From positions 1-22,071 of IMG/VR virus record IMGVR_UViG_3300008113_010014: a stretch of DNA of 22,071 nt. One strand, written 5' to 3'. Under the pieces are notes generated by a model that worked only from the letters and a program-made list of their open reading frames with translations, was not told the origin of the DNA and searched no databases. Source of the DNA: a virus. Below are positions 1-15,607 of the stretch, piece by piece. Made by a program: the position numbers and the translations under genes. Within the stretch, counting starts at the first letter, position 1. Every line of letters starts with the position of its first letter.

Positions 1-330
1 ACAACTGCAACTGAAACGCCAACCAATACTCCAACTAACACTCCAACAGGAACTCCGGCTGTAACTACAACTGCAACTGAAACGCCAACCAATACTCCAA
101 CTAACACTCCAACAGGAACTCCGGCTGTAACTACAACTGCAACTGAAACGCCAACCAACACACCAACACAAACTCCAACAGGAACTCCGGCAGTAACTAC
201 AACTCCAACTGAAACGCCAACCAATACTCCAACTAACACTCCAACAGGAACTCCGGCTGTAACTACAACTCCAACTGAAACACCAACCAACACACCAACA
301 CAAACTCCAACTAATACCCCAACTTATACA
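1..330 (+). repeat. 66-bp in-frame tandem repeat encoding a Thr-Pro stalk
   Basis: Four full copies of a 66-bp unit lie at 1-66, 67-132, 133-198 and 199-264, followed by a degenerate fifth from 265 to about 330. A unit-end remnant reappears near 358-387. Each unit encodes 22 residues of the type TTATETPTNTPTNTPTGTPA followed by VT, so the repeat is exactly in frame. Copies 1 and 2 are identical and the others differ by a few substitutions, including silent ones (cca/acg third positions). The array probably extends left of the window. Such arrays change length readily by slippage or recombination, and would alter stalk length without a frameshift. Confidence 0.95.
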
Positions 331-1542
331 CCTACATCAACTGTAACAATAACTCCTACAGGAACTCCGGCAGTAACCACAACACCAGCATCTACCGTCA
401 CACCAACTGTGACTGAAACACCTGTTCCAACACCGGCAGCAACATCAACACCAACATTAACACCAACAGAAACTACAATAGTTTACTTGTACAAAGCAAC
501 TTTAACGGCGTGTTGTGATGGTGATACTCAACTCCCATTTTTTGCGTCAGTAGGTATGCCAGTGAATGCTGGAGATACAATCATAATTGATGTGGGTAAA
601 GGTGAACAATGTTATACTGTTGGTGAAAACTTAGAACCATCGGTCACATTTGATTGGTCCGTTACACAAGTATTAAGTGGTGACAATTGTGGAACACCAA
701 TCTGTGATGCTTATTGTCCAACACCAACACCAACAGTAACACCAACTAAAACACCAACACCAACACCAACAGAAACCACCGTGTACAGTGAATTATTATT
801 TATTTCTTGTTGTGATGTCAACGAATATGTGATTTACGATAATGGTAGTGCACCGGTGTTTACACCAGGAATGGTTTACAATATTGTTGGTCAGAGTGGA
901 ATGCCTAATGGTTGTTATACCGCAGTTAATTCGGTCGAAAGACCTAATTATATTGGATTATGGAACGGTTCTACAAACGGTATTTATGATGATTGTTCGA
1001 CGTGTATTCTTGAAAACCCATGTCCTGCTCAACCAACACCACAAGCAACTACTACCCCAACTTTAACAAGAACTCCAACAGTAACACCAACTAGAACTAC
1101 GACTCCAACAGTAACACCAACTAGAACTTTCACACCAACACCAACTAGAACTTTCACACCAACACCAAGTGTTTGCACAACTCAAATTACTATAAATTGG
1201 GCAATTCAAACATGTGCTAGAGGTACGTTCTCAATCTTAGTTAATGGAAGTACTGTTTATACTAAAAATGCGTTGGGAATTGCGGGTAGTGGTACTGATA
1301 CAATCACCGTACCATACAATTCAACAATCACATTAAATGGTACTGCAATAAACGTTGCAGGTGGTGGATGTGTTGGTATTTACGATACTTCAGCAATTAA
1401 TATGACACCAGTAGGTGGTGGTGCTAATGGTGTTAGTATTGTCAGAGTTAGTGATGGAACACCAAACAACTTCTCATATAGTTACACTAAAACTTGCCCA
1501 ACTACGGTTATTACATTGGACTACGTTCCAAACCCAATATAA
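1..1542 (+). CDS. Thr-Pro-rich multidomain phage adhesin or fibre protein (5' partial)
   Basis: The frame is open from the first base, so the gene begins upstream of the window; the GTG at 409 is only an internal codon. Order of parts: a Thr-Pro stalk (1-480) built on 66-bp repeats; a cysteine-rich domain (about 481-720); a short Thr-Pro linker; a second cysteine-rich domain (about 781-1030); another Thr-Pro linker to 1167; and a beta-rich C-terminal domain with N/G/T-rich strands (1168-1542). The two cysteine-rich domains share one pattern: a CC pair, then CYT, then a DxC...C...C cluster ending in CP, so they look like paralogous copies. No catalytic motif was recognised. Such modular, linker-rich proteins are typical of surface-exposed virion or secreted adhesins; role in receptor or glycan binding is inferred. 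Thr-rich linkers are plausible O-glycosylation targets for the operon just downstream. Confidence 0.8.
   Translation, partial: TTATETPTNTPTNTPTGTPAVTTTATETPTNTPTNTPTGTPAVTTTATETPTNTPTQTPTGTPAVTTTPTETPTNTPTNTPTGTPAVTTTPTETPTNTPTQTPTNTPTYTPTSTVTITPTGTPAVTTTPASTVTPTVTETPVPTPAATSTPTLTPTETTIVYLYKATLTACCDGDTQLPFFASVGMPVNAGDTIIIDVGKGEQCYTVGENLEPSVTFDWSVTQVLSGDNCGTPICDAYCPTPTPTVTPTKTPTPTPTETTVYSELLFISCCDVNEYVIYDNGSAPVFTPGMVYNIVGQSGMPNGCYTAVNSVERPNYIGLWNGSTNGIYDDCSTCILENPCPAQPTPQATTTPTLTRTPTVTPTRTTTPTVTPTRTFTPTPTRTFTPTPSVCTTQITINWAIQTCARGTFSILVNGSTVYTKNALGIAGSGTDTITVPYNSTITLNGTAINVAGGGCVGIYDTSAINMTPVGGGANGVSIVRVSDGTPNNFSYSYTKTCPTTVITLDYVPNPI
1072..1164 (+). repeat. Short in-frame Thr-Pro linker repeats (30-bp and 24-bp units)
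   Basis: Within the linker before the C-terminal domain, a 30-bp unit starting at 1072 is repeated from 1102. A 24-bp unit is then repeated exactly at 1117-1140 and 1141-1164, encoding PTRTFTPT twice. All unit lengths are multiples of three, so the frame is kept. These are independent of the 66-bp array at the left edge. Confidence 0.85.
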
Positions 1543-1552
1543 TTAATATAAT

Positions 1553-1711
1553 ATGAACGTTAACTTTTCAGGAATTTGGAACTCAGGTACGGCATACAGC
1601 CAAGGAAATTTTGTTGTATATCAAAATGTAATGTATATTGCATTAGAAAATGTACCTTCAGGTCAATTACCTCCTGATATCAATTTATCTTGGGAATTAG
1701 TTGTGAATTAG
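1553..1711 (+). CDS. Chitin-binding-like (CBM5/12-type) module, truncated by frameshift
   Basis: Starts with ATG 10 bases after the preceding stop and encodes only 52 residues before TAG at 1709. The sequence has the spacing of small type 3 chitin-binding modules (CBM5/12): a W near residue 9, AYSQGNFVVYQNVMYIA at about 14-30, a P..GQLPPD turn, and a C-terminal W (residue 47). The module would bind a carbohydrate through its exposed aromatics; this is family knowledge, not shown here. The stop is caused by an 11-bp tandem duplication at 1694-1715. Removing one copy joins this frame to the Thr-Pro protein downstream as one 238-residue protein (1553-2280 minus 11 bases). It is therefore probably the N-terminal piece of a broken or switchable gene rather than a complete protein. 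Confidence 0.6.
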   Translation: MNVNFSGIWNSGTAYSQGNFVVYQNVMYIALENVPSGQLPPDINLSWELVVN

Positions 1712-2280
1712 TTGTCTATGGTGCTCAGTTGGGTCCTGTGACACCAACACCAACCGTAACGTCATCTCTAACACCTACACCAACTAACACCGAAACACCG
1801 ACAAGTACACCGACACCTACACCAACTCCTTCATCAGGAGCGTCAGGTAATTTTAATGTAACAATTACACAAGTAGGTCCTGATGTTGTTTGGTCAGGTT
1901 CAGGTAGTTTTAATTTAACCGCTCTGACATCAAGCGGGCCTGGGTCAGTAAGTTCAGGATTTAATGCCGGTCAAGCTATTTGGGCTATTGGGGTAAGTGG
2001 ATTGACAGATACATATAGTGGTGTAACCACGTACCCAACAACTTTTGGTATTGGTGGTGTTGGAGTAACATCATCATTAGGTTCAATATTTGGTATTCTT
2101 CCAGGTCCTAGTGGACGTTCATTATATGTTCCTTCAGGATACGTTTCAAATACAACTATTAGCGGAAGTGCAACTTATGCATCACAAACAATTGCGGGTA
2201 TGGGACTAACTTCAGGAACATACACTTGGAGTTGGGGTTCGGGAGGAAATACAAGTACATTAGTGATGATAATCGGGTAA
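1690..2280 (+). CDS. C-terminal part of Thr-Pro-linked surface protein (frame-shifted from 1553)
   Basis: The open frame could start at a TTG (1690), but that start is poor and the first residues repeat the ELVV end of the upstream piece, so this is best read as the continuation of the gene at 1553 after an 11-bp duplication. It holds a Thr-Pro linker (about 1738-1835) and a Gly/Ser/Thr-rich beta domain of about 150 residues. That domain begins NFNVTITQVGPDVVWSGSG and ends with a YVSNTTISGSAT ... GTYTWSWGSG stretch. From memory it resembles a domain found in secreted bacterial proteins, often those with PEP-CTERM sorting tails; no sorting tail or membrane segment is present here, as the protein stops right after the domain. 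Likely a surface or virion-attached adhesin piece; function unproven. Confidence 0.6.
   Translation: MGISCELVVYGAQLGPVTPTPTVTSSLTPTPTNTETPTSTPTPTPTPSSGASGNFNVTITQVGPDVVWSGSGSFNLTALTSSGPGSVSSGFNAGQAIWAIGVSGLTDTYSGVTTYPTTFGIGGVGVTSSLGSIFGILPGPSGRSLYVPSGYVSNTTISGSATYASQTIAGMGLTSGTYTWSWGSGGNTSTLVMIIG
1694..1715 (+). repeat. Exact 11-bp tandem duplication causing a frameshift
   Basis: GAATTAGTTGT occurs twice back to back at 1694-1704 and 1705-1715. Because 11 is not a multiple of three, the second copy shifts the frame and produces TAG at 1709-1711. With a single copy the reading is W-E-L-V-V-Y-G-A-Q followed by the Thr-Pro linker, without interruption. This is seen directly in the sequence; whether it is a real allele, a phase-variation state or a sequencing/assembly error cannot be decided here. 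Confidence 0.95.
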
Positions 2281-2380: not shown

Positions 2381-3628
2381 ATGAAAATATTTGTTCAGAT
2401 TGCGGCTTATCGTGACCCCCAACTTATCCCAACAATTAAAAATATGTTGGAGAATGCTAAAAGACCTAAAAATTTAAGATTGGCAATTGCCAGACAATTT
2501 CATCCTGACGATAAGTTTGATGATTTAACTGAATATGAAAATGATTCAAGATTCAGAATCTTGAGTATCCCTCATGAAGAATCTCAAGGAGTTTGTTGGG
2601 CAAGAAATCTTACACAACAACTCTATGATGGTGAAGAGTATACTCTTCAAATCGATTCTCACATGAGGTTTGCCCCAAATTGGGATGACGAAATGATTAA
2701 GATGATTAAACAACTTCAAAAGAAGGGACATAAGAAACCTCTTTTGACTGCCTATGTTTCATCATTTGACCCTGAAAATGACCCTGCAGGACGTATACAA
2801 GAGCCGTGGAGAATGGCGTTTGATAGATTTATCCCTGAAGGTGCGGTATTCTTTTTACCCGAAACAATACCAGGTTGGCAACAACTAAAAGAACCTGTAC
2901 CCGCAAGATTCTATTCGGCACACTATTGTTTTACTTTGGGTGCATTTTCACACGAGGTTCAACACAACCCTGAATATTATTTCCACGGTGAAGAAATTTC
3001 AATCGCCGCACGTGCATACACTTGGGGATATGATTTGTTTCACCCACATAAAGTTTTGATTTGGCACGAATACACTCGTAAAGGAAGAACGAAGCAATGG
3101 GATGACGACAAAGAGTGGGTAAGAAAAAATAATCACTCACACCTTACCAATCGTCAATTATTTGGTATGGATGGTGAAGAACAAAAGGGGCACGATGGTC
3201 CTTATGGTTTTGGTAGTGTTAGAGAGTTAAGGGATTATGAAAAATATTCTGGTCTCTTGTTTGAAAAACGAGCGGTTCAACAATACACTTTGGATAAAAA
3301 TTATCCACCAAATCCTTATAATTATGAATCTGAAGAAGAATGGAAAAAGAATTTTGCTTCTATCTATAAACATTGTATTGATGTAAATTACGCATCCGTA
3401 CCTGAAAAAGATTATGATTTTTGGGTGGTTGCATTCCACGGTCCTAATGATGAGACATTATACAGAAAAGATGCTGATAAATCCGAAATTCAACGTATAA
3501 TGAATGACTCTGATGGGTATGGTAAAGTATGGAGAGAATTCCAAACAGAAATTAAACCATCTTACTGGGTTGTTTGGCCATTCTCAATTTCAAAAGGATG
3601 GTGTGAAAGATTGACAGGAACTTTGTAA
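2381..3628 (+). CDS. GlcNAc-transferase-like glycosyltransferase (GT60/PF11397 type)
   Basis: The 415-residue protein opens with KIFVQIAAYRDPQLIPTI, the signature start of the GlcNAc-transferase family that includes the Dictyostelium Skp1 hydroxyproline GlcNAc-transferase. Further family features are QGVCWARNLTQQLYDGEEY (69-87), the DxH-type metal site D92-S-H94, and FHGEEISIAARAYTWGYDL (201-219), which holds the likely catalytic acidic pair E204/E205. The last 70 residues (about 343-415) look like an appended domain. There is no signal peptide or membrane segment, so it should act in the cytoplasm, transferring a sugar from a nucleotide donor. It is first in a five-gene operon and its TAA shares one base with the next ATG (TAATG). 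No Shine-Dalgarno is seen. The acceptor could be a protein (Thr/Pro-rich neighbours) or a surface glycan; this is inference. Confidence 0.75.
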   Translation: MKIFVQIAAYRDPQLIPTIKNMLENAKRPKNLRLAIARQFHPDDKFDDLTEYENDSRFRILSIPHEESQGVCWARNLTQQLYDGEEYTLQIDSHMRFAPNWDDEMIKMIKQLQKKGHKKPLLTAYVSSFDPENDPAGRIQEPWRMAFDRFIPEGAVFFLPETIPGWQQLKEPVPARFYSAHYCFTLGAFSHEVQHNPEYYFHGEEISIAARAYTWGYDLFHPHKVLIWHEYTRKGRTKQWDDDKEWVRKNNHSHLTNRQLFGMDGEEQKGHDGPYGFGSVRELRDYEKYSGLLFEKRAVQQYTLDKNYPPNPYNYESEEEWKKNFASIYKHCIDVNYASVPEKDYDFWVVAFHGPNDETLYRKDADKSEIQRIMNDSDGYGKVWREFQTEIKPSYWVVWPFSISKGWCERLTGTL

Positions 3629-4218
3629 TGAGGGACGTATATTTTGTAATATCTCTTCCAAGGACAGGAACTAAGTCATTATGTAAAATGGCAAATACTT
3701 GTGGGTATGAATTTAAACACGCACCAATTAATTTGTTCAAAAAAGAGTTAGATTCAGGTAAAAACTTTTTTGCTGACACACCTTGTTTTGTACCTTCATT
3801 TATTGAAAAAATTTTTAATATAGAAAACATAAATCCAAAATTTATTTATATTGAAAAAGATTATAATAATCTGTTTAGTTCATGGGAAAAAGTCAATCTT
3901 TATTTGAACTATACAAGAATGTTTAAACAATATCAAAATGAAGAGACACGACAATCAATGAATCCAAATGCAGTTACAGATTTTCTTTCTCTTCACGAAA
4001 GTTTTTCTGAAACATATTTGGATAAAATTAATTATGCTTATCTGTTTGAATTACACAAACAAAAAATTGTTTCTATAATTAATAAAAATAATAAAGAATT
4101 ATTGATGTATAAATTTGAAGATGGTTGGGAACCATTTTGTAATTTTTTGGGTTGTGAAATACCATTTACAGAACTACCTCATTTAAACATCGATACAATG
4201 TTCGAAAAAATAATTTAA
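3628..4218 (+). CDS. Sulfotransferase-like protein
   Basis: The 196-residue protein begins VYFVISLPRTGTKSLCKMA; SLPRTGTKSL (9-18) matches the 5'-phosphosulfate-binding loop of PAPS-dependent sulfotransferases. FIYIEKDYNNLFSSW (72-86) fits the second strand-helix element that contacts the 3'-phosphate of PAPS, though the usual R-D-P residues are replaced by E-K-D. The length is short for the family, with a compact C-terminal half. Predicted reaction: transfer of sulfate from PAPS to a hydroxyl, probably of a sugar. It overlaps both neighbours by one base (TAATG at each end), indicating translational coupling. The coding sequence is visibly very AT-rich, more than the polymerase gene. The overall assignment is good; the acceptor is unknown, and a non-catalytic or other P-loop role cannot be excluded. 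Confidence 0.65.
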   Translation: MRDVYFVISLPRTGTKSLCKMANTCGYEFKHAPINLFKKELDSGKNFFADTPCFVPSFIEKIFNIENINPKFIYIEKDYNNLFSSWEKVNLYLNYTRMFKQYQNEETRQSMNPNAVTDFLSLHESFSETYLDKINYAYLFELHKQKIVSIINKNNKELLMYKFEDGWEPFCNFLGCEIPFTELPHLNIDTMFEKII

Positions 4219-5792
4219 TGGCTAATATATCTTTTTATGGTTCACATAACGCTGCTGTTGTGGTAGAAGAGAATGGTAAAATTCTCTGCGTTATCGAAGT
4301 TGAACGTTTTTTAAATGTTAAAAATGCGGGTTATGCTCAATACTTGGTATCCCATACAAGACCTTTTTTGTTAAAAGAAATTTGTAATTGGATTGAAAAA
4401 AAGTTTGGTATTTCAGAATACGAAAATTGTTACTTTTTAAATACTGATACTATTGAGGGTCCTACAAAGGTACACTACGAAAGATTGATACCTGCAAAAA
4501 ATTACGAACAACTTTTACACCATGGGTCTCACGCAGCTTGTGGATTTTACCAAACCGATTATACTGAGGCTCTTATCGTGTCATTTGATGGTGGAGGTAA
4601 TGATGGATTTTTCAATGTATATCACGCACCTGATAGAAACAATATTAACGAGATTAAAAGACTTGGAATTGATATGGGATTCCCATATATGTCTTTTGGA
4701 GATTATTTAAAAGATATTAAATTAGAGCCAGCGTTGAATATTGGTAATTTGGTTTATTCAGGTAAAATCATGGGTCTATGTTCGTATGGTACGTTAAGAG
4801 AAGAATGGTTACAACCTATGAAAGAATATTATTTGGCAAAACCAGATGGTAACAATTATTTAGGATTACTAAAAATTCTTAGTGAGAAAACGGGATTAGT
4901 TTTTGACAAGTCAAACAGATTAGAAGGTCAAGAAGCTTGGGATTTGGCTAAAACATCTCAAATTGCGTTTGAAGAAATTACACTTGAATTAATTAAACCA
5001 TTTTTGGATGAATATCCAAACATACCATTAATTATGGTTGGAGGTTGTGCTTTGAACATTTTATTTAACACAAGATTAAAAGAAGAACTTGATAGGCCGG
5101 TATTTGTACCACCCAATCCAAATGATTGTGGTATTGCATCAGGACTTTTGTTATCAAAAATGAAACCTGAAAGGGCAATAGATTTGACATATGCGGGTAT
5201 ACCAATTCTTGACGAGGAAAACTTATGGTCTGTTTTGGAACATAATTGGAGAAGTGAACCACTTAATATCGACAATTTGGTTGATTTCATAATCAGTGGA
5301 AAAATTGTTGGTGTTGCTCGTGGAAACTCAGAACACGGTCCAAGAGCTCTTGGTAATCGTAGTATTATTTGTGACCCAACTAAACCTGATATGAAAGATA
5401 TCTTAAATGCAAAAGTTAAACACAGAGAATGGTATAGACCGTTTGCACCTGTTGTAAGATTAGAAGACGTTTCAAAATATTTTGAATTTGAAGGTGAAAG
5501 TAGATGGATGGGATTTTGTCCTAAAGTAAGAGAAGAATGGAGAGAAACTTTAGTATCCATAACTCACGTAGATGGTACTGCAAGAGTTCAAACAGTCACA
5601 AAAGAACAGAATCCTTGGTTATATGATTTATTAACTAAATTTGAAGAAAAAACCGGTGTCGGGGTTTTACTTAATACATCTTTCAATGTTGATGGTAAAC
5701 CAATTCTTTCTACGTTAAGAGACGCTTTAGAGGTTTATAATAAAACTGAATTGGATGCCTTGGTACTTCAAAATTATTTTATACGTAAATGA
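4218..5792 (+). CDS. Carbamoyltransferase (NodU/CmcH/TobZ family)
   Basis: At 524 residues it has both domains of the family. The N-terminal HUJ/Kae1-like half carries SHNAA (9-13), ER (29-30), HHGSHAACGF (101-110) with metal-binding histidines, and FDGGGNDG (123-130). The YrdC-like C-terminal half carries SEHGPRALGNRSI (371-383), REWYRPFAP (403-411) and LLNTSFNVDGKPI (484-496). Family members make carbamoyl-AMP from carbamoyl phosphate and ATP and pass the carbamoyl group to a hydroxyl of a sugar or antibiotic. Within this operon a sugar acceptor is likeliest. A DNA-modifying role is also possible, since phage members of this superfamily carbamoylate 5-hydroxymethylcytosine; no hydroxymethylase is visible in this window. 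It starts in TAATG with the preceding gene and its TGA overlaps the next ATG by four bases. Confidence 0.9.
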   Translation: MANISFYGSHNAAVVVEENGKILCVIEVERFLNVKNAGYAQYLVSHTRPFLLKEICNWIEKKFGISEYENCYFLNTDTIEGPTKVHYERLIPAKNYEQLLHHGSHAACGFYQTDYTEALIVSFDGGGNDGFFNVYHAPDRNNINEIKRLGIDMGFPYMSFGDYLKDIKLEPALNIGNLVYSGKIMGLCSYGTLREEWLQPMKEYYLAKPDGNNYLGLLKILSEKTGLVFDKSNRLEGQEAWDLAKTSQIAFEEITLELIKPFLDEYPNIPLIMVGGCALNILFNTRLKEELDRPVFVPPNPNDCGIASGLLLSKMKPERAIDLTYAGIPILDEENLWSVLEHNWRSEPLNIDNLVDFIISGKIVGVARGNSEHGPRALGNRSIICDPTKPDMKDILNAKVKHREWYRPFAPVVRLEDVSKYFEFEGESRWMGFCPKVREEWRETLVSITHVDGTARVQTVTKEQNPWLYDLLTKFEEKTGVGVLLNTSFNVDGKPILSTLRDALEVYNKTELDALVLQNYFIRK

Positions 5793-6676
5793 AAACAAAA
5801 TTTGTAACGGCATTTTATACAGACATTAAAGGGTTTCCTTTTTTTGGACATGAGGCGTTTGCCAGACATGAACGATATCTACATTCATTACGAACAATTG
5901 CAAACACAAAATGTGAGATTGTTTTGTATTGTAATGAAGACCAAGTTGAATTATTAAAAGAATATTGTTCTAAGTTTGAATTATCTAATGTGATAATAAA
6001 AATTTCAAATTTGAAAGATTATCCAAAGGCTGAAAGAATGAAAGAAATTAAAGCTAAAACGGATAGTTTTAAAATGTATCATGAAATTGATTGGAATAAA
6101 TTTTATCTTTTGGAAAAAGAATATGACGAGTCCTACGATTACATTTATTGGATTGATTGTGGGTTATCTCATCCAGGTCTATTTTTAGACCGATATAATC
6201 CATATGTTGATAAAGTTGATGGTTTATCTAAAACATGGGAAAACTATTCATACGTAGGATTATTTAATGAGAATTTTGTACCTAAATTGAACGAATGGGT
6301 TAATCACAAATTAATTAATTGTTCAACCACAATATTCTTTCATGACATGAGATATGCCAACACAATTTTGGAAAAGACTTATACTGGTAGGTCAATTTCT
6401 GTTGGTGGTATTTTGGGAGGTTCTGTAAAACTATTAAAATGGTACTTCAACGAATTTAATAAATTGGCGGAATTAAGTTTAAATAAGGATTCAATCCTTA
6501 ATCATGAGGCGATGGTTTCTTACATGGTTTTAGAGAATCCTAATAATTTTACGACATGGGAATTTGATACTTGGTATCACGATGACTATTGGAAAAAAAC
6601 ACCACAATTCAATGTGGATTCAATAAAAGGGGTGAGACATTTTGTTCACCTATTTGATAAAGTTCTTGGTTTATGA
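5789..6676 (+). CDS. HtrL/YibB-type putative glycosyltransferase
   Basis: A 295-residue protein starting KFVTAFYTDIKGFPFFG, followed by a CEIVLYCNED strand (42-51) and the motif YIYWIDCGLSHPG (118-130), whose D123 replaces the DxD metal site. This layout matches the HtrL_YibB family (PF09612), members of which are GT-A-fold glycosyltransferases of surface polysaccharide loci. The same WIDxGL motif appears in the middle domain of the next gene, so the two are paralogous. No signal or membrane segment is seen. Coupled by 4-base ATGA overlaps on both sides. Donor and acceptor sugars cannot be told from sequence. Confidence 0.65.
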   Translation: MKTKFVTAFYTDIKGFPFFGHEAFARHERYLHSLRTIANTKCEIVLYCNEDQVELLKEYCSKFELSNVIIKISNLKDYPKAERMKEIKAKTDSFKMYHEIDWNKFYLLEKEYDESYDYIYWIDCGLSHPGLFLDRYNPYVDKVDGLSKTWENYSYVGLFNENFVPKLNEWVNHKLINCSTTIFFHDMRYANTILEKTYTGRSISVGGILGGSVKLLKWYFNEFNKLAELSLNKDSILNHEAMVSYMVLENPNNFTTWEFDTWYHDDYWKKTPQFNVDSIKGVRHFVHLFDKVLGL

Positions 6677-9045
6677 CAGATATTTTTGATAGGGTTCTCC
6701 ACCATTATGGGAGAAAAGGTGAAAAACTTTTTAGTTTGAACATCGGTGCAATGGACGGTGTATTATTTGATGAGTTAATTGGTTATACAACATCGTATAA
6801 CTTTAAAGGTTTGTATGTTGAACCAATTCCATATTTGTTCGAAAGACTAAAAAAGAACATAGGTGAGAACGGTAATTTGTTTGAAAATGCCGCAATTTCT
6901 GATGAGAATGGTACTATTAAAATGATGACCATTGACCAAGAGGCAATTGATAATGGTGAAGTACATTCTTGTTTCTATGGAATGAGTGCGGTTTACCCAC
7001 CCAAAAATGGTTTGGGTAGTGAGGGTGATAAAGAAGTTGTTGAGAAATACGGAAAAATTGTTGAGGTACCTTGTATTACATTAGAAACATTGTTTAAAAA
7101 ACATAACATTACTTCTTTTGATGTATTAAAAATCGACGCTGAAGGACATGATTATCAGATTTTTAAACAATTAGATTTGAATACCTACAGACCTAAAGTA
7201 ATAAGATTGGAGTGGGTAAACTTAGATAAGGAACAACAAAAAAATATTTTAGATATATTCACAAATAATAATTATAGATACGAATTTTTAGAACAAGATA
7301 TTATTGCAGCCCCTATAGAAATCTATGAAGAACTTGAAGAACCTGTTCAATCTAAACCAAAACCTGATAGTAACTCGGGTATTACTTTAGTAACAGGATT
7401 ATGGAACATCAGAAGAGATTCACTCTCTGAAGGTTGGTCTCGTTCATATCAACATTATTTGGATAAATTCCAACAATTACTACAGGTGGAAAATAATATG
7501 ATTATTTTCGGGGACTCAGAATTAGAATCTTTTGTATGGGCACACAGGGATAAAAAAAATACTATTTTTATTAATAGACCCCAAGAATGGTTTAAGGGTG
7601 AATTTTATGATAAAATTCAGGAAATCAGAAGAAATCCTGATTGGTATTCTCAAGCTGGTTGGTTACAGGAATCTACACAAGCTAAGTTAGATATGTACAA
7701 CCCACTTGTAATGTCTAAAATGTTCTTACTTCATGATGCAAAAATTTTGGATTCGTTTGATTCAAAATATATGTTTTGGATTGATGCTGGATTAACAAAC
7801 ACGGTACACCCTGGTTATTTTACTCATGATAAAGTTATCGATAAACTTACCAAATACGTAAGTAAGTTTTCATTTGTTTGTTTCCCTTACGAAGCAAACA
7901 CTGAAATTCACGGATTTAGATTTGATGAAATTAATAAAATAACAGGACAAAAAGTTGAATTAGTTGGTCGTGGTGGATTTTTTGGTGGACCTAAAAACTC
8001 AATAGGTGATATTAATTCAATATACTACAATCTTTTACAATCAACACTAAACAAAGGTTTGATGGGTACTGAGGAAAGTATTTTTTCAATCATGGTCTAT
8101 AAACATGCCGATTTGGTTGATTATTTTGAGATTGAATCAAATGGATTGTTTGGTAAGTTCTTTGAAGATTTAAAGAACGATAGGTTGGTTAGAAAGAACA
8201 AACAAAATTTACTTTCACCAAGTGATGATTTAGACACTTCTAATTCGGCGTTATATGTTATTACATTCAATAGTCCAAAACAATTTGAAACACTTATTGA
8301 ATCGATGATTCAATACGACAGAAACTTTTTGGACAAACCAAAAAAATACCTTTTAGATAATTCTTCAGACTTATCAACTACCGAGAAATACTCGGAACTA
8401 TGTAACCAACATGGGTTTGAACACATCAAAAAAGATAACTTAGGTATTTGTGGGGGTAGACAATGGATTGCAGAACATGCCGAAGAAAATGATTTTGATT
8501 TTTATTTCTTTTTTGAAGATGATATGTTTTTCTATCCAAAAGAAGGAAGTGTTTGTAAAAATGGATTTAATCGATATGTAGAAGATTTTTATAATAAATC
8601 TTTGATGATTACTAAAAAATATCATTATGATTTTTTGAAATTCAATTACACCGAGTTTTATGGTGATAATGGGATTCAATGGTCTTGGTATAATGTTCCA
8701 CAATCTTTTAGAGAAAAACATTGGCCAAACAAATCACAACTTCCTGTACAAGGAACTGACCCTAATGCACCAAGAACTAAATTCAACAATATTAGAAGTT
8801 ATCAAGGAATTCCTTTTGTTGATGGAGAAATTTATTATTGCAATTGGCCTCAAGTAGTGACAAAACACGGTAATAGAAAAATGTTCTTAACAGAAAAATG
8901 GGCACATCCCTTTGAACAAACTTGGATGAGTTATATGTTCCAACAAACAATTAAGGGTGATATTAAACCCTCAATGTTGTTAATGACACCAACCGAACAC
9001 GATAGATTTGATTTCTATGATGGAAAATTGAGAAAAGAGTCCTAA
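6673..9045 (+). CDS. Three-domain fusion: FkbM methyltransferase, HtrL/YibB domain and GT-A glycosyltransferase
   Basis: A 790-residue protein with three recognisable enzymes. Residues 1-215 are an FkbM-type SAM methyltransferase: NIGAMDGVLFDE (23-34) for SAM binding, YVEPIP (48-53), and DVLKIDAEGHD (150-160). After a Pro/Glu/Lys-rich linker (about 217-235), residues 236-500 form an HtrL/YibB domain with TLVTGLWNIRRDS and YMFWIDAGLTNTVHPG (366-381). Residues about 525-790 form a GT-A-like glycosyltransferase: ALYVITFNSPKQFETLIES start, NLGICGGRQW (589-598) and the acidic metal motif FFFEDDMFF (612-620). The predicted product could both extend and O-methylate one glycan. It ends the operon; the stop is followed 18 bases later by a structural-type gene. 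The domain calls are by motif; the third is the least certain. Confidence 0.75.
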   Translation: MTDIFDRVLHHYGRKGEKLFSLNIGAMDGVLFDELIGYTTSYNFKGLYVEPIPYLFERLKKNIGENGNLFENAAISDENGTIKMMTIDQEAIDNGEVHSCFYGMSAVYPPKNGLGSEGDKEVVEKYGKIVEVPCITLETLFKKHNITSFDVLKIDAEGHDYQIFKQLDLNTYRPKVIRLEWVNLDKEQQKNILDIFTNNNYRYEFLEQDIIAAPIEIYEELEEPVQSKPKPDSNSGITLVTGLWNIRRDSLSEGWSRSYQHYLDKFQQLLQVENNMIIFGDSELESFVWAHRDKKNTIFINRPQEWFKGEFYDKIQEIRRNPDWYSQAGWLQESTQAKLDMYNPLVMSKMFLLHDAKILDSFDSKYMFWIDAGLTNTVHPGYFTHDKVIDKLTKYVSKFSFVCFPYEANTEIHGFRFDEINKITGQKVELVGRGGFFGGPKNSIGDINSIYYNLLQSTLNKGLMGTEESIFSIMVYKHADLVDYFEIESNGLFGKFFEDLKNDRLVRKNKQNLLSPSDDLDTSNSALYVITFNSPKQFETLIESMIQYDRNFLDKPKKYLLDNSSDLSTTEKYSELCNQHGFEHIKKDNLGICGGRQWIAEHAEENDFDFYFFFEDDMFFYPKEGSVCKNGFNRYVEDFYNKSLMITKKYHYDFLKFNYTEFYGDNGIQWSWYNVPQSFREKHWPNKSQLPVQGTDPNAPRTKFNNIRSYQGIPFVDGEIYYCNWPQVVTKHGNRKMFLTEKWAHPFEQTWMSYMFQQTIKGDIKPSMLLMTPTEHDRFDFYDGKLRKES

Positions 9046-14080: not shown

Positions 14081-15607
14081 TTATTTTAAGTGGTATAACA
14101 AATCGTTCCTATCAAAAACATATTGTCCTAAAACAATTTCAGGATTGTTTTTGAAAATTAAAACTTGTCTACCTCTGATGAAAACCATCCAATTAACTTT
14201 ATAGTTGTCAATTTCTCCGGTTTTAGTAATAACTAACTTATCCTCCTCAGGAATCATTTCATCATAACCTTTAACCTGTGCGGTGATTTTTCTACCCTTA
14301 TGAAAAATTTCTAAATCAATTTTTTTGTAGGCATCTTTTTCTTTACCCGCACCCGCAATAACAATTACCTTAGTTTCGGGAATTTTGGTTTCAATTATTT
14401 TTTTGGCGGTTTGTTCTCTCTTACTTCCAATAGAATCTTTTTCTTTAAGAGTTGCCATAATGTTTTTGAATGTGTGACTTGTTTTTGAAAAAATTCTTGA
14501 TGCAAATTTTTCAATGTAATTACACATTCTTTTCATTTCTCTAATCTGTTCTGCGGGAGTTTTATCGTCAAAATTAATTGCTTCTTCGTTTAATTGACCG
14601 ACAATAACTTTGTTCAAATCATTTACCATAATACAAAAAACTGAATAGTTTGTATTCATGTAGTTAATAACAGAACGACCTGGTTTTTCTAAATTGTAGA
14701 TACCGGGTATTTCACCATCTTCAGTTTTATCGTGATACTTGTCGGCAAAAAGGTTTTTCAAAACACTATTAATTGTGTTCTTATAAATGTTTCTTGCTTG
14801 TTTGTTTACATTGAATAAAATTCTGTAGAATTCCACATCTTCTCTTGAACAACCTTCTGATTTCGCTTCGTGTAATAATTGACCCATTTCTACTGATTCT
14901 AAAAGTGACGTTTCTGTTTTCATTTTATACAAATTACCAACAAAGTCCCAATTGACTGCGGTCCAAAAGTTTTTGATATATTCATCTCTTTTGTTTTTGT
15001 ATTTGAGGTAATATGCATGTTCCCACAAATCTAAGCCTAAAAGTGGATATCCGCCGCCTTCTATAACATTCATTAATGGATTATCTTGGTTTGGAGTTGA
15101 CATAATTTTTAATGTCCCTTTGTTTGTTAGAACTAACCAAACCCATCCCGAACCAAATCTTTCTTTGGCAATTTTTTCAAACTCTTGTTTGAATTTTATA
15201 AACGTTCCAAATTCCTTGATAATTTTTTCTTCAATCTCTTTGGTAACTCTCATTGGTTTTGGAGATAACATGTTCCAAAAAAGAGCGTGATTGAATGCCC
15301 CACCAGCGTTGTCTCTTACACCTTTTGGATAACGTGAAATGTTTCTAATAATTTTCTCAAGGTCCTCATCTTTTTTTCTTTTTTTGAGAAGACCATTAAG
15401 TTTATCAACGTATCCTTTGTAGTGTTTATTGTAGTGAACGTTCATTGTCTCAGGGTCAATAAAACGTTGCAGGGCTGAATAGGCGTAAGGGAGTTTTTCT
15501 ATCCCTATTTTTTTCATTTCTTGAATTAGAACCTTTACCTCTTCTTTTTTCTCTTCTTGTAGAATTTTCTTTTCCAAAATTTCTACCGATTCTTGTAGTT
15601 GTTGCAT
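14081..15607 (-). CDS. Mn-superoxide dismutase fused to a PD-(D/E)XK-like nuclease domain
   Basis: The 508 residues carry a full Fe/Mn superoxide dismutase at about 38-228: LPYAYSAL, then HYNKHYKGYV with ligand H58 and gateway Y66, AGGAFNHALFW with ligand H107, RFGSGWVWLVL, and GLDLWEHAYYL with ligands D193 and H197. G103 and Q174 (STPNQDNPLM) occupy the positions typical of Mn rather than Fe enzymes. A helical middle region (230-390) is unassigned. The C-terminus (about 395-508) has KKIDLEIFHKGRKITAQVKG (428-447): D431, E433 and Q444-V-K446, an acidic residue plus QxK core as in Mrr-type and related nucleases. All SOD ligands are kept, so dismutation of superoxide is plausible. It lies between the SNF2 helicase (38 bases upstream) and the gp13-like gene. 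The nuclease call is less sure than the SOD call. Confidence 0.8.
   Translation of the reverse strand: MQQLQESVEILEKKILQEEKKEEVKVLIQEMKKIGIEKLPYAYSALQRFIDPETMNVHYNKHYKGYVDKLNGLLKKRKKDEDLEKIIRNISRYPKGVRDNAGGAFNHALFWNMLSPKPMRVTKEIEEKIIKEFGTFIKFKQEFEKIAKERFGSGWVWLVLTNKGTLKIMSTPNQDNPLMNVIEGGGYPLLGLDLWEHAYYLKYKNKRDEYIKNFWTAVNWDFVGNLYKMKTETSLLESVEMGQLLHEAKSEGCSREDVEFYRILFNVNKQARNIYKNTINSVLKNLFADKYHDKTEDGEIPGIYNLEKPGRSVINYMNTNYSVFCIMVNDLNKVIVGQLNEEAINFDDKTPAEQIREMKRMCNYIEKFASRIFSKTSHTFKNIMATLKEKDSIGSKREQTAKKIIETKIPETKVIVIAGAGKEKDAYKKIDLEIFHKGRKITAQVKGYDEMIPEEDKLVITKTGEIDNYKVNWMVFIRGRQVLIFKNNPEIVLGQYVFDRNDLLYHLK

Follow-up and report, generated by a model that had tools for sequence, protein, structure and literature searches.

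A perfect 11-bp tandem duplication, private to one assembled sequence, interrupts a modular adhesin-like gene in a fragment of an uncultured phage

The window, by which we mean the whole stretch of DNA analysed (22,071 bases), is a complete IMG/VR virus record. Both of its outermost ORFs are open at the window ends, and the record is therefore a fragment. The genes encoded on it include a tail sheath (phrog_23, E 6.8e-13), a family B DNA polymerase, an SNF2-type helicase and a superoxide dismutase domain, and this combination indicates that the source is an uncultured contractile-tailed phage, probably a large one. Isolated-phage matches of the polymerase and glycosyltransferase genes were distant (<60% identity). 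The superoxide dismutase (14081–15607, minus strand) is of the Fe/Mn type, with both Pfam domains, and is joined in one ORF to about 280 further residues in which no domain was recognised. A run of glycan-related genes at 2381–9045 encodes a GlcNAc transferase, a sulfotransferase, a carbamoyltransferase and a 790-aa protein with FkbM methyltransferase, HtrL_YibB-like and TET-associated glycosyltransferase-like regions.

The gene under study (1553–2280) lies between a long adhesin-like ORF and the GlcNAc transferase-family gene (Table 1). Judged from its domain resemblances, it encodes a modular adhesin in which a CBM5/12-like module, a Thr-Pro linker and an exchangeable beta module follow one another. 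The product is probably borne on the virion, presumably on the tail.

Table 1. Features of the adhesin locus, in window coordinates
Feature	Position	Strand	Remarks
Upstream Thr-Pro-rich multi-domain adhesin-like ORF	1..1542	+	Runs off the window's left end
ORF of the N-terminal CBM5/12-like module	1553..1711	+	52 aa, ATG start, premature TAG
Downstream open frame	1690..2280	+	In the -1 frame with respect to the first ORF; lacks an early ATG
GAATTAGTTGT, copy 1	1694..1704	+	
GAATTAGTTGT, copy 2	1705..1715	+	Aligned homologues have one copy-equivalent only
Premature TAG made by the duplication	1709..1711	+	Within the second copy; next in-frame stop is a TGA nine codons on
Thr-Pro linker	1738..1845	+	Out of frame with the first ORF; placed from the translation of 1690–2280 and the module start
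All-beta module	1846..2277	+	144 aa; homologous to other Thr-Pro adhesin modules and to a bacterial PEP-CTERM core
GlcNAc transferase-family gene (PF11397)	2381..3628	+	Pfam E 1.4e-65; syntenic anchor in relatives

The 11-mer GAATTAGTTGT is present twice, head to tail, in identical copies. The identity run at a lag of 11 is exactly 11 bases long with zero extra matching bases on either side, which bears out the exact back-to-back repeat reported in the preliminary description. The tract consists of two units of 11 bp (TRF gives 2.4 copies). A first-order Markov model of the sequence leads one to expect about 0.06 perfect tandem duplications of period at least 10 per 20.6 kb, and the duplication is thus beyond chance. 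Since 11 is not a multiple of three, gain or loss of a single unit shifts the reading frame. No stop interrupts the -1 frame between the TGA at 1675 and the TAA at 2278–2280 (open from 1678), and this stretch codes for the last part of the first module, the Thr-Pro linker and the beta module. The only early start candidates in this frame are TTG at 1690, TTG at 1729 and GTG at 1738.

For the N-terminal module, Pfam CBM_5_12 (PF02839) matched residues 9–31 of the window ORF with E 4.7e-5 and 23.8 bits, below the cut-off of 26.2. The orthologues described below scored 25.2, 21.7 and 20.7 bits against the same gathering score, and those in L009 and L012 cover profile positions 1–43, nearly the whole profile. 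The window module also matched a tail fiber family (phrog_5073, E 5.8e-5), and the L012 orthologue matched a virion structural protein family through its own beta module (phrog_19691, E 1.4e-9). Beyond one weak CBM-like match to Escherichia phage KIT01 (35%, E 5e-3), no relatives of the CBM part were found among isolated phages. Its dN/dS, at 0.21–0.27 for comparisons with the window, slightly exceeds the 0.09 of L009 versus L012, but these values cover only 51 codons and date nothing. The earlier assignment of a CBM5/12-like module, a Thr-Pro linker and a beta domain was thus roughly right, with CBM5/12 below the Pfam threshold and the beta module confidently predicted.

Syntenic viral loci (n = 80) were fetched with the downstream glycosyltransferase gene. 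Two records have an orthologue of the interrupted gene at the corresponding place, flanked upstream by the same adhesin domain and downstream by the GlcNAc transferase gene: L009/L011 (IMGVR 3300042449_001680) and L012 (3300015244_003330). The glycosyltransferase gene is 95% identical to that of the window in L011 and 94% identical in L012, and the last 124 aa of the upstream adhesin-like ORF are 93.5% identical in L009. L034 provided a third, more diverged homologue. In all three the frame runs from W-D-[LI]-V-V-Y-G directly into their own Thr-Pro linkers, and their aligned DNA is gapped by exactly 11 columns where the window carries its duplication. The extra copy is hence an insertion that only the window sequence has, and copy number at the site does not vary among the three aligned homologues. 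The preliminary description had proposed that the duplication splits one continuous protein, with the CBM5/12-like module on one side of the break and the linker and beta domain on the other. It had also suggested comparison with homologous phages, which might end naturally at the TAG; instead, the three homologues, each with one copy-equivalent, continue in frame, which upholds the proposal. The same read-through rules out two natural genes. A chimera of unrelated contigs was likewise ruled out, because both flanks share their nearest relatives and synteny and because homology spans the site: DNA homology to L011 runs from 1033 to 1755, across the duplication, and again from 2296 into the same next gene. 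Homology to the close relatives ends near the exchangeable module, at 1755 for L011 and 1708 for L012, and only the linker and C-terminal module differ from them, which indicates module exchange between close relatives.

The AlphaFold2 model of the beta module has an all-beta fold with a mean pLDDT of 94.7. There was no clear structural match in PDB or BFVD (best Foldseek E 0.036, VIA Z 3.1), no sequence match in PDB and no relative among isolated phages. Profile searches placed the module in about 30 other viral contigs, nearly always after Thr-Pro linkers; the exceptions are L118 and L122, whose ORFs begin with the module, and L004, which has other linkers. All full-length viral copies lie in ORFs that have an upstream Met or run off a contig edge, except that of the window. 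The window module has no internal stop and a dN/dS below 1 against relatives (0.24/1.01 against L004), which is consistent with recent loss. Relaxed selection was dropped as evidence of age, since dS is near saturation and the alignments are short. In L007 (4487–4741), half a beta module, 82% identical to that of the window and startless, directly follows the stop codon that ends an intact Thr-Pro adhesin ORF. This half-module is probably a displaced remnant of module replacement, and stranded pieces of module thus do occur among these adhesins.

A homologous beta module of 140–150 aa is present in 24 bacterial genome contigs (L130–L153; E to 2e-21), and a profile of the phage modules matched bacterial PEP-CTERM contigs with iE to 6e-39. 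Most of the bacterial proteins carry an apparent export signal before the module and a PEP-CTERM-like tail behind it, the signals and most of the tails being judged by eye; Pfam and NCBIfam PEP-CTERM matches in the tested proteins were weak or near the cut-off. The window module has neither a signal peptide nor a PEP-CTERM sorting tail, and its protein ends one residue after the module. The homology suggests that phages and bacterial surface proteins have exchanged modules.

Of 76 related loci (L011–L090), 62 have a Thr-Pro-rich ORF upstream of the adjacent PF11397 gene, and 49 of these ORFs end within 150 bp of it; none of the 76 has a Thr-Pro-rich ORF downstream of the gene within about 4 kb. 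These loci are related, not independent. The founding member of PF11397 is the Skp1 polypeptide GlcNAc transferase, and the enzyme may therefore glycosylate the mucin-like Thr-Pro linkers. Large aquatic phages with mostly predicted Bacteroidota hosts, a lineage to which the window may or may not belong, are reported to carry four core groups of putative glycosyltransferases, for which virion glycosylation has been discussed as one possible role (PMC12619734).

The reading we prefer, to which we give about an even chance, is that of a single, recent and private 11-bp tandem duplication, real and truncating, which makes this copy of the adhesin gene a loss-of-function allele. The duplication, presumed present in real molecules, would have arisen once, right at the CBM module's C-terminal boundary, and the shifted frame would cut the adhesin to a 52-residue stub. 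Loss of the linker and beta module would then change the surface to which the phage adheres; that the break alters host attachment is suggested by domain resemblance. Against this reading, identity over exactly one unit is also expected of an unmerged assembly overlap of 11 bases. It is quite possible, then, that two contig ends sharing 11 bases were placed end to end and the overlap never collapsed, or that two strain variants were stitched at the variable, repeat-rich edge of the adhesin, and that the true gene is intact. The site lies just upstream of the Thr-Pro linker and the exchangeable module, where homology to close relatives stops, but homology to L011 extends about 40 bases beyond the duplication. 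The sister contig L110 has a comparable defect: its conserved glycosyltransferase gene (664–1756) is broken by a frame-shifting deletion relative to the 98%-identical L111, through assembly error or mutation, so private frame-breaking indels do occur in these assemblies. Across 111 related viral loci (819,674 bases) there were 103 in-frame perfect tandem duplications of period at least 10, presumably mostly in Thr-Pro repeats, whereas the out-of-frame kind was limited to 3 distinct cases, each of period 10; no other perfect out-of-frame duplication of period at least 11 was found in these bases. That uniqueness fits an artefact, but such rarity in 820 kb of similar assemblies means that artefacts of this kind are not common either.

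The preliminary description had read the repeat as a slip-strand on/off switch, in which slippage or recombination between the copies would make the gene alternate between coding for a stub with the CBM module alone and for the whole adhesin. A change in copy number does toggle the frame, and the gene encodes a surface adhesin; phase variation of receptor-binding proteins is known from Campylobacter phages with polyG tracts, according to PMC11868660. As marks of a contingency locus we took a hypermutable tract, variation among relatives, or recurrence. There are only two units here, with no multi-copy repeat or hypermutable tract and no copy-number variation among the homologues, and the base rate given above speaks against a recurrent switching device among the related phages. 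A junction search allowing 0 to 11 bases between the flanks returned no other record among the searchable IMG/VR contigs, near-identical records possibly lying outside the search. Within the literature library searched, nothing directly relevant to tandem-duplication phase variation of tail fibres was found. Nothing marks the 11-bp pair as an evolved contingency locus, although loss of one copy could in principle revert it, as with any tandem duplication. We consider a switch very unlikely, and it is slightly harder still to believe that one- and two-copy forms coexist in the population and yield some virions with the CBM stub alone and others with the complete adhesin and its bacterial-type beta module. 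The null allele and the assembly error, both named as alternatives in the preliminary description, fit better. Translation of both halves by -1 frameshifting, stop-codon recoding or reinitiation is the least credible of the readings. The frames do overlap from about 1678 to 1711, and the TTG at 1690 lies 19 bases upstream of the TAG, but a restart would have to use TTG or GTG in place of ATG, and the orthologues need no recoding. Programmed -1 frameshifting was rejected because the overlap contains no X XXY YYZ slippery heptamer, and readthrough or recoding of the TAG because the frame meets the TGA soon after. Loss of function by duplication is thus our first choice, with an assembly artefact close behind; an evolved switch is unlikely, and translation of both halves more unlikely still.

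If the duplication is real, an accessory adhesin has here been knocked out naturally in its distal module while the rest of the phage fragment is intact, and the allele would be useful for asking whether distal modules are dispensable. In metagenomic viral contigs, frame-breaking tandem duplications are easily mistaken for switches, and a claim of switching first needs orthologues, a base rate and reads. The surrounding locus is of greater importance, as it joins a module common to phage adhesins and exported bacterial PEP-CTERM proteins to a neighbouring conserved glycosyltransferase gene. We regard the PEP-CTERM-core homology and the GlcNAc-transferase linkage as more interesting than the duplication itself.

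The closest systems for comparison are the adhesin genes of L009/L011 and L012, which share the N-terminal module and the gene neighbourhood of the window but have one equivalent of the 11-mer, a continuous frame and C-terminal modules unrelated to that of the window. The secreted, exosortase-sorted PEP-CTERM proteins of bacteria have a homologous core beta module; most of them combine it with a hydrophobic, signal-like N terminus and a PEP-CTERM-like tail, whereas the phage copy sits on a Thr-Pro linker. The receptor-binding protein genes of Campylobacter phages are phase-variable via polyG tracts (Sorensen et al. 2021, cited by PMC11868660), and there, as here, a change in repeat length shifts the frame of a phage adhesion gene. 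In those genes the repeats are hypermutable homopolymers and switching has been shown, whereas the window has two 11-bp units in one sequence.
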